Below, piece after piece: positions 1,399 through 12,512 of a DNA stretch of 64,000 bases (the first letter of the stretch is position 1; every line of letters begins with the position of its first letter). The stretch covers positions 71,086 through 135,085 of the forward strand of contig JAQVFO010000001.1 of NCBI GenBank assembly GCA_028697205.1, given 5' to 3'. The notes under the pieces are model-generated. The model was given only the letters and a program-made list of their open reading frames with translations, did no database searches and was not told the origin of the DNA. Both the position numbers and the translations under genes were made by a program. Origin of the DNA: Candidatus Altimarinota bacterium. GTDB lineage: Bacteria; Patescibacteriota; Gracilibacteria; BD1-5; UBA6164.

Positions 1399-1971
1399 AT
1401 GCATCATATGATAACAGCAATGAAAATGCAAGTTTGATGAGTTGTAAAAATAGGGAATGAACTACTTTTAGTATTAAGAAAAGAAATTCATAGATGAGGT
1501 AGATGAGCTACAAATATAAAAGTTAAAATGAAAAATTTATTAGCTTGAAATACTACTGATAGAGTTTTTGATAGTGAAGAAAAAATGGATGATATAATTT
1601 TAGAAAGATCTAAATTTGAGTTTTTATACCAATCTGGTGATACATTTTATTTTATGAATAATGAAACTTACGAACAAATAGAATTAAATGCAGAAGATGT
1701 ATGAGATAATGTAAATTTTATGACTCCATGATTAGTTGTAGATATACAAAGATATGAATGAAGACTAGTTTGAGTAATCCTTCCTGCACAAGTTAAATTA
1801 TTAATTACAGAATGTGAACCAGGTGTTAAATGAAATACAGCAGACTGAAGAGTTGTAAAAGAAGCAACATTAGAAACATGATATACAATAAAAGTTCCAT
1901 GATTTGTTGAATCATGAGAATATGTGATAATTAATACAGAAACTTGAGAATATAGTGAAAGAGCAAGATAA
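1399..1971 (+). CDS. efp: Elongation factor P, arginine type
   Basis: This 190-residue protein is EF-P, which binds ribosomes stalled at polyproline and promotes peptide-bond formation. The three beta-barrel domains align along the whole length: KMKNLLAG and the TTDRVF / ILERS strands of domain I, the middle OB domain, and the C-terminal GNTADGRVVKEATLETG and INTETGEYSER signatures. The tip loop that carries Lys34 in E. coli reads HRGGRGATN here, so the modified position is Arg (about residue 35), as in the rhamnosylated EF-P of Pseudomonas and Neisseria. Several ATGs crowd the start (1399, 1408, 1420). The first is used here, but EF-P families usually begin nearer the later ones. The gene converges on earP at 1987, which supplies the matching modification enzyme. 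Confidence 0.95.
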
Positions 1972-1974
1972 TAA

Positions 1975-2014
1975 AGAAAAAAAATACTAAAAATTAATTT
2001 TTAGTATTTTTTTT
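1975..2014. terminator. Bidirectional terminator between efp and earP
   Basis: A perfect AT-rich inverted repeat (AAAAATACTAAAAATT and its complement) with T-runs on both sides sits just after the efp stop. It includes the last codons and TAG of earP, so one hairpin can end both convergent transcripts. Confidence 0.7.
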
Positions 2015-3054
2015 AATTCAGTAAGTAAATTGCAATTTTGTTCTATATAGTTTCATAAAAATTTAAATAAATTATGAAAATCTTGTTTATCTAAGAAACT
2101 ATTAATGGCTTCATTTTTTTGTGATGAATTAAAAAACCTCAAAATATCTAAGTTTATTCAAAAATCTCAAACAAACTTCAAAAAATCATCTAATTTTTCA
2201 TTATGAGCTCAATTTTTTTCTTTATAAATATCCCATAAAGTTGGTTTTCAATAAGCAAGGGAAGTACATAAACTATTTTCTCATCTTACAAAGTTTATAT
2301 CACAAATAGATAGCAATTCATTAAAGTCTAATAATTCTAGAAATGGCATAAAAAATAGATTATTTGATTCTGATTTATAATTATTTTCATAATCAAAGAT
2401 AAAAAATACTTCATCATTTCTGTGTTTTATTGATTTAAGTATTTCACTAAGAGAGTCTTTATAAACAAAAACAGAAACCCATTTATTATTTGCTAGGTTT
2501 TTTGATAATTTTAGATTATATTTTTTATTTATATAATTTAAATAATTTTCTTTTATATCTCATCTTGTTTTTATTTTATTTATAATTATTCCTCAAGTGT
2601 TTTTAATTAGACTAGGAATAAAATGAATATATTTATCTCAATTAATTTCATAAGTTGTTCAATGTAAATTTTCAACTCACTTATGAAGTAAAAAATATCA
2701 AAATTGTATTATAGTTTTATTTGTTTCTCATTTTTTTAAATAATCATTTGATAATCTATAATCAAAAAAAGTAAAAATATTTTTTGACGGAATATGATTA
2801 TTTAATTCATTAATATTTAAAAAAGTTATTTTTTCTTTTCAATTATCTCAAATCATTTTATTAAATAATTCTTCATTATCAGAAAAAAACCTAACTTTTA
2901 AGTTTTTGCTTTCTGAAGTCATATTTAAAGCTAGATTTAATGCGAATCAAATATCTCAATAATTATCTATAATAGGAACGTAAAAATCTATAGATGAGTT
3001 CATATGAAGACTAGATAAAGGATGTATAATATTATAAAAGTTATTCAATGCCAT
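1987..3054 (-). CDS. earP: EF-P arginine rhamnosyltransferase EarP
   Basis: EarP transfers L-rhamnose from dTDP-rhamnose to the tip arginine of EF-P. The 355-residue product shows both family signatures: IDNYGDIG near residue 30, the N-terminal Rossmann motif with the catalytic aspartates, and RGENSL..AYGKP.LWDIY..NGAHNEKLDDFL near residues 255-295, the nucleotide-sugar site. The usual length is about 370-390. The start at 3054 has AAAGGAG ten bases upstream, unusual here. An internal ATG at 3003 would put the signature at the typical distance from the N-terminus, so either start is possible. The gene overlaps the end of the upstream exchanger by 67 bases, or by 16 with the inner start, and converges on efp. 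No rhamnose synthesis genes are in the window. Confidence 0.88.
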
Positions 3055-3965: not shown

Positions 3966-4107
3966 AATTAATAAAAATAATAAATAAAAAAATTTAAGTT
4001 AAGTATAATTTTTATTTAATTTTTTCAAAACTTTAATTGACTTTTTATTTGAAAATTGTTGGATTTTCTTTATTATAAAATTGATATTATACATTTATAA
4101 TTTTTTT

Positions 4108-5664
4108 ATGAGATTACTATTAACATTTGTTTTCATCTTTTTATCGTTTTCAAATTGTTTTTGAGAAGAAAATATTAACCCTATTTGATGAATTTTAGAT
4201 TCTACTTGAGCAATACTATGAGAAGTTAAATGTGCAGATAATAAATATGAAATAATATGAGACTTTGACACAAAATTAAATAGTAATTTACTTTATAGTA
4301 TAAAAAATACTCTTGCTTGAGAGGAAAAAACAGATATCTTAGTTGATTTTTCTGTAGAAAAAAATTGACAAAAACTTGCTGAAAAAAATACAGAAAAATT
4401 TAATATTGTTTTTGCAGATATATGACCTATTTTAATCAAAGCTAAAGTTACTGAAAAAAATACAGATTGTGTTTACAATTTACAAAAAAATATAAATGTA
4501 TATTCTAAAATTGTTTCTTATATTTCTGATAAAAGTGACCTAAATTTATCTTTTGATAATGATTTTAAAAAAAATAATATATTTTTTAATGAAACAATTT
4601 TAGAATCAAAAAATTCAAGTTTAATTTGAGAACAATTTTTATCACAAGTAACTGATAAATTATATATTTTTCAAGATTCAGATATTATAATTATTAATTC
4701 AAGCAATTATTTAGAAATTTTACAGTGATTTGAGAAGTTATCAAAAGTTTACAATATAAATTTTCCAAATAAAAAGATTTTTATTGTTACTGATTCTAGT
4801 TTTATACTATCAAAAAAACTCTTAAGTAATTTTATTAATAGTTTAGAGGTTAGTATTTATACATTTACACCATCAAATTTATTAAATTTTTTAAATTATA
4901 TTTCACTTTGAAGATCATCAACAGACATAATAAAAAATAAAGAATATTGAATAAATCAAATCTCTTTTGAAGATAATTCTAGTAGTTTATTTTTCTTAAC
5001 AAATTTCACAAATAAACTTATATCATCTTGATTTCCTATAAGTATTTTATGAATTATTTTTTCATTATGAGTTGCTGTAACAGTTATTAATTTCATTAGA
5101 CAATTTGTATGAATTTCTATTTTTAATTTATATTATCCAATATTTTTTGCATTAAGTGTTTATCTTTTTAGTTTTCAAATTACTTTAGTTTTATTTATTT
5201 CATCTATTCTTTCTATGTATTTTATGAAAATGATTTATAAAAAAGTTCATTTTTTACTAAATACAAAACTTTCACTTTTCTTTGTCTTGTATCTTATAAT
5301 CTCAATTTTAACAATTTGAATACTAAATATTTTTAATTTAATTGATTTTATAGATCTTAAATCAAATTTAGTAGTTTTTCCTTTTATTGTTATTCCTATG
5401 GTTGCATATAAGTTACTTGCTGATGAAAGAAATGTTTTTAGTATTGCGTTTTTATTTTATTTATCAGAATTTATATTTGTATCTTTAGTTGCATATTTTA
5501 TTATAAAATCAAGTTTTATTCAAAATATATTTTTAGCATATACAGAATTACTTATAGTTGTATTTCTTATAAATTTCTTAATTTGAAAATTTACTTGATT
5601 ACAAGTTCTGGAATATATACGTTTTCTTCCTCTTATTAAAAGACATTTTCAAGAAGAGGAATAA
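4108..5664 (+). CDS. Membrane protein with large N-terminal domain and 7 TM helices
   Basis: The 518-residue protein has a signal peptide (FVFIFLSFSNCFG), an extracytoplasmic region of about 280 residues, then about seven hydrophobic helices from residue 305 to the end. The layout, and the adjacent RimK-like ATP-grasp gene, match the family of seven-TM proteins fused to an inactive transglutaminase-like domain (UUP1 family). That assignment rests on layout and neighbourhood, because I see no clear transglutaminase motif. No catalytic Cys-His-Asp triad is evident. The stop is 52 bases before the next gene, so they are probably cotranscribed. Likely role: membrane partner of the downstream peptide-ligase/peptidase. 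Substrate unknown. Confidence 0.65.
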
Positions 5665-5716: not shown

Positions 5717-8044
5717 ATGCTTGATTTTTGAATACTTTCGATGAATGAAAGAAATCTTAATTACATTAAAAAACTTAACCCAAAATCATCTGTTAATTTA
5801 GCTGATAATAAGGTTGAAACAAAAATCTTTCTAGAAGAAAGATGAGTTTCTGTCCCTAAAACATTATCTATTATTTCTACAAAAAAACAATTAAACTCAT
5901 TTAATTTTAAGTCATTAAAGGAAGATTTTTTCGTTGTAAAACCAGTTTTTTGAAGCAGATGACAATGAATATTAATAGTTGAAAATTTAAAAAATTGAAC
6001 ATATAAAATCTGATGAGAAATAGTTTCAGAAGAAATTTTGTTAGATCATATGCTAGATATTCTTAACTGAGATTTTTCTCTAAATTATTGATATGATAAA
6101 GTCCTTATTGAAGAAAAATTAATTCCTTGAAATTGATTTGAAAAATTTTGTCAATATTGATTAGCTGATATTAGGTTGATTGTTTATAATTTAGTACCTG
6201 TTGCAGCTATGATTAGAGTTCCAACAAAAATTTCATGATGAAAGGCTAATTTGTCGCAATGATGAGCATGATTTTGAATTGAGGTATGATCTTGAATATT
6301 AAATACATTTTATACTAACTGAAAAGTTTATAAAAAAGAATTTCCTGAAGAATATAAATTATTAAAATGATTTGAAATTCCATTTTGGAATGAAATACTT
6401 CAAGCATCTTCAAAAACTCAATTTTTTGTAAACTTATGATATTTAGCCCTTGATTGGGTAATAACTGGATCTTGACCAAAAATTCTTGAAATAAATGCAA
6501 GAGCGTGACTTGAAATACAAAATGTATGTTTACTCCCTTTAAAAAATAGGTTAGATAAAATAAAAGATTTAAAAATCACTGAACCTGAAAAATGAGTTGA
6601 ATTATCAAAATCATTATTTTCTGAAAAAATAACAACTAATTTTACATCATGAAAGGTTATATATTTGTCTCAAGATGCAAAATTAATTTATGATGATACT
6701 GAGGAAAATATAGTTGTTAATGTTGACTTAACTAAATCAAAAAATTTTATTTCTAGTTATTTGTATGATTTATTATCAAATACAGATTTTACAATTTATT
6801 TTTGAGATGGAATAAAATTTGATAAGTTAAAATTTCAAATTGATGATACATTGGACGATGATGTAGCAGTATTATGAACAAATATAGTAAAAGATTTTTT
6901 TATAAAACCTGAATCAAATATAAAGAAAAATGAATTATTTATTCCAAAAAAGGCTAATAAGAATGAAATTTCATTATTAAAAATAATTGATGAAAAAGTT
7001 GTAAAACTTGATAAGAAAGTAAGTTTTACAACAGTTTTAAAACCTGTAAATTTTCTTGAACAATTAGATAAGTTTATTGAAATGAAATGAAAATATAATC
7101 CAATTTTTGAATATGATTTTCCAAGTGAAGAAAGAATTGAAAATTTAGAGAAAGAAATAACTATATTGAAAGATACATATTTTAAAAAGGATTTAGAATT
7201 AAAATCAGAATTTGCAAATATATTTTTTGAAAAAATAGAAGAAATTTCAAATAGATTAAATCTTATAAAAGCTTATAAGGAACAGAACTTTGTTGATATT
7301 GAGAAATATAATATTAAACTTTTTGGTAAGCTTGATGATAAATTAGTAAAAAAGGCAGTAACAAAACTATGATTATTGGCAAATGATAATGTTTTATGAA
7401 AACAATTAGATCCAAGTTATGTAGTAGAATATATAAAAAATTATTTAGAAACTAATTCTATATTTACCTGAGTTAAGGTAGTTTTATCTACATCAAACAT
7501 GTCTAGAATTTTAGTAAATAGAAAAAAGTGAAAAGCTGAAGTAAGAGTCTCAGTAGATGGGGTTTTTAGAGAAAAAGAATTAGATTGAATAATTGCTCAT
7601 GAAATATGAATACACTTAGTTAGAGCTATAAACTGAAAGAAATCATGATGGAATATATTTGAATCATGAACAGCCGATTATCTTGCAACAGAAGAATGAT
7701 TAGCAGTATATAATAGTTTAAAATATTTTCCTGATGCATATGAAAAAAATGCTATGTATCAAAATTATTATATGATAGATCAAGCAAAAGAACTTGATTT
7801 TCAGGAACTATCTGAATTATGATTTAAATTAAAATGAAATGATTACATAAAAGTTTTTAAAACAATTACTAGATTTAAAAAATGAATCAAGGATACAAGT
7901 ATAAAAAACCATTGAGCTTTTTTCTCAAAGGATAAAGTATATTTAGATTGATATATTCAAGTTAGAGATTGGATTGAAGATTGATGAGATGTAAATAAAT
8001 TGATGATAGGGAAAGTTAAGATTGAGGATTTAGATATTGTGTAG
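5717..8044 (+). CDS. RimK-like ATP-grasp ligase fused to DUF1704 (MATCAP-like) metallopeptidase
   Basis: A 775-residue two-domain protein. Residues 1-290 are an ATP-grasp of the RimK-related glutamate-ligase group: SMNERNLNYIKKLNPKSS start, VVKPVFGSRGQGI phosphate loop, LIEEKLIP, DIRLIVYN, and ILEINARAGLEIQN metal-binding residues. Residues 400-775 are a DUF1704 domain with the zinc motif HEIGIH (His628, Glu629, His633) and the EEGLAVYN element at about 659-666 that names the family (QEGLA). ATP-grasp enzymes of this type form amide bonds to Glu-like residues, and eukaryotic MATCAP enzymes remove C-terminal Tyr/Glu from tubulin. One chain could therefore add and remove a residue, which is inference. 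The start at 5717 includes the MLDFGILSMNERN leader usual for the ligase. The 3' end overlaps the convergent gene by 29 bases. Confidence 0.88.
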
Positions 8045-9638
8045 ATTTTATCTTATTTGCAATAACTTTAAAAACTTTATTTACAATTAATTTTTGTTCC
8101 TTACTTATATCATTTAACATTGAGTCAAAATCTATTCATAAATAATAATATTTTCTTTTTAAAAAATCTTTAAATGATTCTTTGTTTAATTTTCATGTAA
8201 TTATTTTTTGTTTTAATAATACTTTATAAATAATTATATCTACAATAAAGAAAGTAATTAAAAAGTCTTTATTTTGTGAAAAATCAATTTTTCAAGAAGT
8301 AATATCTTTAATTCAAAATTTTCAATTAATTAATTTAAAAATATCTCATCAACTTTTTAAATAATCTATTATTTTTAAAAGTCATCTAATGTATGTTGTA
8401 TCTTTGTGTTGTACTCAAACTCAATTAATTGGTTGATTTCTTTTATACCTTATAAATCTTGCTTCATTTGTTGTAAGTTTTCTTGTTACATCTCAATATA
8501 TATCTATAAATTTTAAATATTCATCACTTTTTAATATTTCTCATGCAAATAGTGTTGTAAACTCTGGAGATACTGGATTTACAGAAAAAATATCTTCTCA
8601 TCTATGCATTATTGATTCGAGTAACATAGCCATTCATTCATCTTTTTCTACATTTCATTCTCATCTTATATCTCAAAAATATTTTTCATGATTTCTTTGA
8701 CTTATATAGTGTCATAAAACTTCATGTGTAACTAGTTTTAATATTCTGTCTAAAGGTAGTTTAGCAAATTTGTCATTATCTGGTATATCAAGAAAATCTG
8801 GTCAGTCATAAACAGATCCTGCACTTGCTAAACGAGTTCTTTGCCTTAATCATAAAGATTCAAAAATCATATCAAATATTTGCATATATGTTTCTCTATC
8901 TATTTCTGCTTTTCAAAAAGTATCTCTAAAATCTTTTGTTTCTTTATTTTCTTTTTTATTATATATAAATTTCATTCATACATCATATCATCTACTTTCT
9001 AATTCGTTTTTAATTTTTGCTAAATATTTTTGTAGTTCATTATATCTTTCAGGAGTTATTTTATATTTGTTTTTTTCAGATTCTGTAATCATATAGTCAT
9101 AACATCTAAGAGCTTCTTCTTCATTATCTATTACTTTTCATCAATATAAAACTTTCTCATATTCTTCATTTTTTGTTACTATAAACTTAATTTGAGTTTT
9201 TGTTAAATACTTTTTATATCAAGCTTTTTTTAATTCAAAAATTAATGAATTTAAAAAATATTGCAGCAAAGTTATATTATAGTTAATTGCGTTCATAATT
9301 ATCTCTTTTTTTGAATAATTTAACTCATCATTAACTATTAGTTCTTTTAATATAGAATTAAATTCATTTATAATTTTTATAGTTTTTTCTCTAATAGTCC
9401 TTTCTAGTTCTTTAAAATCTTCTTGAGATAATTCTGGTTTTTCAGGAAAATCTTTTCACAAAAAAGTCTCAAATATATCTTTATTAAAATAAATATTTCT
9501 TCAATTTATCTTATAAGTTGATTTATAAGCGTAAGTTAATTCAAGAATTTTATCAAGTCATGGAGTTTTTAATAAATTGGATAATTTTTTTTCTATTTTT
9601 TCCTCTGAAATTTCATAATTTCAAACCTGATTTTGCAT
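8016..9638 (-). CDS. DUF1704 (MATCAP-like) metallopeptidase, stand-alone
   Basis: A 540-residue protein with a helical N-terminal half and a C-terminal DUF1704 domain. The zinc motif is HEVLGHY (His305, Glu306, His310), followed by FGDIRGEGNVEKDEGMAMLLE, which provides the conserved EGMA/EGLA element. It is a second member of the family fused to the ATP-grasp in the convergent neighbour, but lacks the ligase. It probably cleaves C-terminal residues from proteins. Substrate unknown. A long AT hairpin covers the start codon region. It converges on the fusion gene with a 29-base overlap, so both messages are antisense to each other at their ends. Confidence 0.82.
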
Positions 9639-11342: not shown

Positions 11343-12512
11343 ATGAATAATATAGATAATTTTTTGTGAGTAATTTTGTTTACTGATTTAAAAGATTATA
11401 CTTTAAAGACATCTTTATTAACTCAGAAACAGATGGATGAGATTTTAGATAATCAAGATTTAATTATCAAAAATTCGCTAAAAAAATATGATTGAAATTT
11501 AATAAAAATTATATGAGATTCATATATGATTTATTTTATTGATCCACTAAATTCATTATTGTTTTCAATTAACATTCAGGAACAACTTAAGAAATATAAT
11601 GATGCAAAACTATTAAATTTATTAAAAATTGAGATAAGAATTGCTTTGGATTATTGAATGATACATAGAAAAGAAATTTTTAAATGAAGTGATTATTTTT
11701 GAGAAACAGTAAATATATCAGCAAGATTAATTTGAAAAACAATTGAAAATTCAATTTTTATAACAGAGAGATTTTATAAATCTATTAATAATGAAAAAAT
11801 TGATGCAAGATTTTCTTTTTTATGAGATGCTAATTTTAAATGAATAATTGATAAAATTTGAGTTTACCAAGTTTTATATTTAGAAGATGAAATTAAATTA
11901 TATGATAATTGAAAATACAAAAATTTAGATTTTACATCAATTATTTTAGATGATAAAACAAAAATTAGAATAAAAAACATTGATGAAATAATTTTGAAAG
12001 CTTCATCAGTAAATGCTATATTATGATCTCAACCTATACCATTTATTGAAATGTATTCATCAGTAATTATATATATTTATATGCTTAAGCAAATAGCATA
12101 TGAATACAACATTAAATTATCAAATAATGAAATTAAGGAAATAATAATTGTACTTTTTTCTTCGTTATGAACTTCATTGTTTGTTTGAGAATCAGTTAAT
12201 ATTATTAGTAAAATATGATTAGTATGATTTTGAGGGTTTTTAATTATTCCATTAAATTTTTGAACAGCATATGGTGTATGAAAAGTTATAAATAGATATT
12301 TTTATAATAAAACAAAGGATATTAATCTTTCAAATTCTGAGATAAAAGATTTATTTTTGTCATGAAAAGATGTATGAATTAAATATGCAAAACAAAATAA
12401 AAAACAAGTTATTGAAACTTGAAAAAATTTTAAGGATGATTTTATTAATAAAACAAACAAGATGAAAAAAGAAATTGATAATATAATAAATGAATTAAAA
12501 AATTTTTTATAA
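11343..12512 (+). CDS. Class III nucleotide cyclase fused to a DUF697-like membrane-associated domain
   Basis: In this 389-residue protein residues 8-180 form a class III adenylate/guanylate cyclase catalytic domain. FTDLKDYT and DGNLIKIIGDSYMIYF supply the two metal-binding Asp positions, and FGETVNISARL supplies the transition-state Asn and Arg, so the site looks intact. Residues 240-340 (PIPFIEMYSSVI..YG, GLVGFGGFLIIPLNFGTAYG) resemble DUF697, a domain usually attached to GTPases and membranes. The C-terminus is a charged helix. I cannot tell cAMP from cGMP. It sits between gpmI and eno with short gaps, suggesting one operon. No cyclic-nucleotide receptor domain was recognised in the window. 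Confidence 0.78.

Follow-up and report, generated by a model that had tools for sequence, protein, structure and literature searches.

A candidate rlo-type C-terminal glutamylation cycle in which a fused MATCAP peptidase appears to have replaced the retropepsin eraser

Operons of an ATP-grasp enzyme, a seven-TM (7TM) protein and a peptidase, related to the one described here, were reportedly predicted in the 2009 amidoligase survey by Iyer et al. Among characterized systems, rloABC of Pseudomonas comprises the 7TM protein RloB, the ligase RloC and a secreted, periplasmic retropepsin, RloA, which cuts polyglutamate; losing RloB or RloC rescues the loss of RloA (PMC12239564). In the rim systems, RimK makes free poly-alpha-glutamate in vitro, stimulated by the eraser RimB, which itself requires about 5-6 glutamates, and RimBK is a ligase-eraser hybrid with the retropepsin at its N-terminus; bacterial C-terminal polyglutamylation has been described as limited to a single protein, RpsF, and genomes with rimB or rimBK hold about half as many genes with five or more terminal glutamates (PMC11957791). 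The animal MATCAP/TMCP enzymes TMCP1 and TMCP2 trim tubulin tails, C-terminal glutamate included (PMC10499314). Ligase-eraser hybrids and animal MATCAP as a trimmer of Glu or Tyr are, in other words, already known; the literature searched yielded no MATCAP version of such a system, no repeated eraser swap, no Glu-ended membrane partner and no substrate for any RloC-type ligase.

The locus reported here lies in a stretch of 64,000 nucleotides (the window) and is a relative of Pseudomonas rloABC, as a 7TM gene is located upstream of an RloC-like ligase. The two share the RloC ligase family, an RloB-type 7TM protein with an extracytoplasmic domain opposite a cytosolic ligase, and a co-encoded eraser; the pairing of a 7TM_transglut protein with an RloC ligase is present in the window and common in the class of the source genome. 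An active DTG RloA retropepsin is not encoded at the locus, where the motif is lost and the corresponding part of the protein degenerate. The rloABC eraser is a separate secreted retropepsin, whereas that of the window is a fused cytosolic MATCAP domain, and RloB carries an inactive transglutaminase domain where the 7TM protein of the window has a PKD-like and an alpha/beta part. With RimK/RimB and RimBK the locus has in common an ATP-grasp glutamate ligase and an eraser, sometimes in one chain, and C-terminal Glu chemistry; however, RimBK has an active N-terminal retropepsin and no 7TM partner described, while the order here is ligase, dead retropepsin, MATCAP. We consider it probable that this is an rlo-type C-terminal glutamylation cycle in which the eraser was swapped from a retropepsin to MATCAP, with the 7TM tail as the likely substrate. 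A first-pass annotation had proposed a reversible C-terminal modification cycle; the comparative evidence below backs such a cycle with Glu. The system is not an isolated one but appears to be an rloABC variant, and RimBK, of the retropepsin type, provides a single-chain precedent.

The fusion gene (5717-8044, plus strand) forms a single open reading frame of 775 codons under genetic code 25, in which 48 TGA codons are read as glycine, including some at conserved Gly positions such as that of HEIGIH; under table 11 the frame is interrupted by TGA and no long frame is left. An origin of the fusion in an assembly or frame artefact is excluded, as 57 of the 60 loci sampled from other class genomes have the fusion in one frame, and the three remaining loci consist of one real swap (L040) and two with overlapping frames (L034 and L061). 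The two halves are hence not separate genes in all relatives, and the loss of metal- or ATP-binding residues that would have spoken against function is not observed: the checked metal, catalytic and ATP-grasp residues are constant in all 54 aligned fusions except for the first Glu of TEEGLA, which is mostly E or Q, and D726 and G723, which are variable. Both active sites thus appear intact, as first suggested. The AlphaFold2 model of the fusion has a mean pLDDT of 90.2 and a pTM of 0.55, the latter leaving the arrangement of the domains unsure, and its top fold matches include RimK (also in complex with RpsF) and human MATCAP.

The N-terminal domain (residues 1-288; 5717-6580) is a RimK/RloC-like ATP-grasp ligase, as the first-pass annotation had it. 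Pfam ATPgrasp_ST (PF14397) matches residues 12-283 (E 8.9e-46, 156.7 bits against a cut-off of 31.4), and K75, E132, D151, R153, D246, E258, N260 and R262 are invariant (54/54). In fold searches the N-terminal part matches RimK and other ATP-grasp ligases with Z-scores of 16-18 (RimK 5zct, Z 17.3), and the fits of ArgX and cyanophycin synthetase are comparable to that of RimK (Z 17-18). The match to TIGR02291 (E 1e-58, 198.8 bits) falls below the NCBI cut-off of 314.2; the domain is a relative of this family and is not filed as that equivalog. The nearest functional name is alpha-L-glutamate ligase-like, and glutamate is presumably the co-substrate. Elsewhere in the genome, no other RimK scores above the cut-off and just one match lies below it. 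RpsF is an unlikely substrate, as its frame in the source genome ends in VSKD and, unlike the RimK target, has no Glu end; with neither another clear RimK nor a Glu-ended RpsF, the usual alternative target is removed.

The C-terminal domain (residues 438-775; 7028-8041) belongs to the MATCAP (DUF1704/QEGLA) gluzincins, again as initially read. PF08014 matches residues 452-665 (E 3.3e-22, 79.4 bits against a cut-off of 27), a phmmer search of the PDB aligns human KIAA0895L/MATCAP over 564-773 (E 1e-15), and residues 438-775 superpose on human MATCAP 7z5g with Z 25.1 and an rmsd of 2.5 over 269 residues at 26% identity; QEGLA (TIGR02421) scores 84 bits, below its NCBI cut-off of 338.65. The HExxxH metal and catalytic motif HEIGIH (H628, E629 and H633; 7598-7615) and E660 of TEEGLA (7694-7696), the third metal ligand by homology, are invariant (54/54). 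TMCP1 and TMCP2 (KIAA0895L and KIAA0895; 7z5g and 7z6s) share with this domain the fold, HExxxH, EEG and KRG-like motifs, and the known activity of the family is C-terminal Glu/Tyr trimming (PMC10499314). The domain in the window differs in being bacterial and ligase-fused, with a membrane protein tail rather than tubulin as its proposed substrate. We infer that it is a metallo-carboxypeptidase that trims glutamates back.

Overlooked in the original domain reading was the middle of the protein (residues ~300-415; 6614-6961), which alignment and profile comparison identify as a decayed retropepsin, the type of enzyme that serves as eraser in the related rlo and rim systems. Middle parts from the class align in hhalign with live CPR retropepsins at a probability of 99.3 (E 2.5e-20, shared flanking helix omitted) and with separate RloA proteins at a probability of 93, where E-values are pairwise and carry no database correction; the seed of the earlier retropepsin profile contained no class fusion. 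The assignment depends on these profile comparisons because the whole-model fold matches cover mainly residues 3-287. In the fusion of the window the catalytic DTG has become DLT and the flap is deleted; other decayed copies have INP, DPH, NTG or DTS, and the flap is missing from the MATCAP-fused copies in the alignment shown. Three class members retain DTG or DSG, although G026, the copy inspected, lacks the flap. The retropepsin domains that an automatic first classification had assigned to several MATCAP fusions were identified by the alignment as decayed copies.

Directly upstream of the fusion, where the first-pass annotation had placed a seven-TM protein, lies the gene of an RloB-like 7TM_transglut protein (4108-5664, plus strand; PF14402, E 2.5e-8), with a possible alternative TTG start at 4081. 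Its layout comprises a signal-type N-terminus, an extracytoplasmic PKD-like and alpha/beta part, seven membrane segments and a tail (AlphaFold2 pLDDT 86.5; PKD matches with TMt 0.66-0.70 over 89 columns). Lys plus Arg counts alternate along the loops as expected from the positive-inside rule, with an average of 4.5 in the tail, which is predicted to be cytosolic. The gene ends in three Glu codons (LIKRHFQEEE; 5653-5661), the proposed substrate or primer site. Such a run of two to six glutamates ends 73 of 84 class 7TM proteins; the 11 exceptions include a wrong match or fragment (G085 and G033) and G113, which has RloA, so that the share is about 73/81 when these are set aside. Where the 7TM gene is unlinked, the run is still present in 18 of 19 class genomes. 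Lys-ended tails occur despite the presence of the system in five genomes of one family (G042, G124, G144, G151 and G185) and in G171. Among unrelated neighbouring genes only 2 of 456 proteins end in two or more glutamates, and in contrast to the class, proteobacterial loci with RloA-type operons have a 7TM protein ending in EE in 1 of 82 cases. On a plasmid of Halobacterium sp. DL1 (L132, 3161-4927, plus strand), the end of the 7TM protein is fused straight to an RloC-like ligase, unannotated in the record, an arrangement in line with a cytosolic location of the tail.

In the survey of genomes suggested at the outset, 147 of 192 class genomes have MATCAP, 154 have ATPgrasp_ST and 136 have 7TM_transglut; the RloA family PF05618 occurs in one of the 192, and a profile search did not find it in the source genome. 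Apart from the 60 class loci, 77 loci from the rest of the phylum and 82 proteobacterial loci were compared. The real swap, in the window's own family (G113), keeps the rlo layout, in which the 7TM protein is accompanied by a ligase without fusion partner and by a small DTGA retropepsin with a membrane anchor; it has no fused MATCAP. In the rest of the phylum the ligase usually carries a C-terminally fused retropepsin with DTG or DSG intact; these CPR fusions (e.g. L189 and L168) resemble the locus of the window in ligase, 7TM gene and C-terminally fused eraser, but have an intact DTG, no fused MATCAP and a 7TM tail that is not Glu-ended. Outside the class, all 60 genomes that lack a fused or adjacent MATCAP have kept DTG/DSG intact, and 9 of the 12 that possess one have lost the motif. 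In five CPR genomes (G235, G383, G466, G503 and G533), MATCAP is the next gene, unfused, and the catalytic Asp is replaced by Asn in all five. The 7TM tail follows the same division outside the class: of nine genomes with MATCAP and a lost motif, eight have a tail ending in Glu-Glu or longer and one a tail ending in a single Glu, and of 63 with an intact motif one has a tail ending in Glu-Glu or longer.

On a quick tree of the ligase domain, with SH-aLRT support only, the state of MATCAP with a lost retropepsin requires three changes, in the class with G426 and G441, in the group of G235, G383, G466, G503 and G533, and in G402 with G448, and Glu-ended 7TM tails are present in all three. The Fisher test of Glu tail against motif loss (8/9 vs 1/63, p 7e-9) is a raw association that ignores ancestry and should be read within the limit of these three events, and a tree-aware sign test of MATCAP against Glu tail yields 1-2 concordant and 0 discordant pairs, without power at just about three independent swaps. 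In each lineage in which MATCAP seemingly replaced the older protease, the co-encoded membrane protein appears to end in glutamates. Three further CPR genomes (G210, G211 and G212; L164, L167 and L165) have a fusion of the ligase with a live DTG retropepsin, a MATCAP gene directly downstream and no Glu tail, and possibly represent two-eraser or transitional states. A single CPR genome (G270, L213) combines a DTG retropepsin fusion with a 7TM tail bearing a long Glu run (SEEEEEEEREEE).

Based on these comparisons, we propose that the system could operate as follows. The ATP-grasp half would ligate glutamate to a C-terminal glutamate, the likeliest acceptor being the co-encoded 7TM protein, which would present its genetically encoded Glu-Glu(-Glu) end to the cytosol. 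The MATCAP half, having replaced the retropepsin eraser whose decayed remnant probably still joins it to the ligase, would trim the added glutamates, and the two enzymes in one chain would set the length of the Glu tail as a reversible switch on the 7TM protein, a putative envelope sensor or regulator. The eraser would in this way have changed from an endopeptidase, which in RimB needs about 5-6 Glu, to an end-trimming carboxypeptidase such as the TMCPs, with which a short encoded Glu end is compatible. By analogy to the Pseudomonas rlo mutants, the physiological role may be in envelope/osmotic homeostasis. The wider generalization, i.e. reversible C-terminal polyglutamylation of a membrane protein in which MATCAP convergently replaced the retropepsin at least three times, each with a Glu-ended substrate tail, is put forward tentatively, at somewhat less than an even chance.

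The 7TM C-terminus is the most likely substrate on comparative grounds. However, RloA is periplasmic in Proteobacteria, and its substrate may for this reason not be a cytosolic tail. This location would suit an exported product (PMC12239564), and the fusion could instead make and trim free poly-glutamate or another peptide, with the 7TM protein acting as exporter or sensor and using its Glu tail as a docking or priming element. The free product of RimK and its stimulation by RimB (PMC11957791) are compatible with such a role, as are the Lys tails of some systems, yet it would on its own leave unexplained why the Glu run is at the extreme C-terminus, the sole site for a carboxypeptidase or C-terminal ligase, and why it accompanies MATCAP and not the retropepsin; we regard it as unlikely, though deserving of serious attention.

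A slim chance is assigned to the ligase adding another amino acid or group, as its relatives ArgX, LysX and cyanophycin synthetase do, with MATCAP removing the same group. The comparable fold matches, the score under the TIGR02291 cut-off and the removal of Tyr by animal MATCAP are in agreement with this. Against it stand the polyglutamate cleavage by the related erasers RloA and RimB (PMC12239564, PMC11957791), the terminal Glu of the tails and the closest functional name, that of a glutamate ligase. Relaxed constraint, in which Glu-rich tails were selected against by a retropepsin that cuts polyglutamate and arose only once it was lost, with a different role for MATCAP, would account for the scarcity of terminal Glu runs in rimB/rimBK genomes (PMC11957791); it is very improbable, as the tails are mostly 2-3 Glu long, shorter than RimB requires, and conserved (73/81), and as G270 has its long Glu tail beside a live retropepsin. 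If the glutamylation cycle on the 7TM tail is correct, tubulin-tail trimming would be one use of a wider family of C-terminal deglutamylases that includes bacteria, and the locus would parallel in bacteria the enzymes that act on tubulin tails in animals. The comparative pattern points to a specific substrate end, a specific pair of enzymes and a naturally occurring exchange of erasers, which makes the question testable.

Several further observations were made in the window and the compared loci. A convergent gene (8016-9638, minus strand) overlaps the stop codon of the fusion and encodes a second, divergent MATCAP-like gluzincin (motifs HEVLGH, KDEG, KR and KDxxYxxG), which scores 45 bits against the MATCAP profile of the class. 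A close relative adjoins the fusion in the same-genus genome G119 (L034), with weaker relatives at other loci, and membership of this gene in the system is unsupported. The 7TM protein of the RloA-type system in G113 (L040, 860-3067, plus strand) contains a very long, Glu-rich, low-complexity extracytoplasmic stretch. Elsewhere in the window, the gene of an elongation factor P whose tip loop carries Arg (GGRGA; 1399-1971, plus strand) adjoins that of an EarP rhamnosyltransferase (1987-3054, minus strand; PF10093, 7e-35), a pair that represents EarP-type modification of elongation factor P in a code-25 CPR genome, and a class III nucleotide cyclase domain is joined to a DUF697-like membrane part (11343-12512, plus strand).
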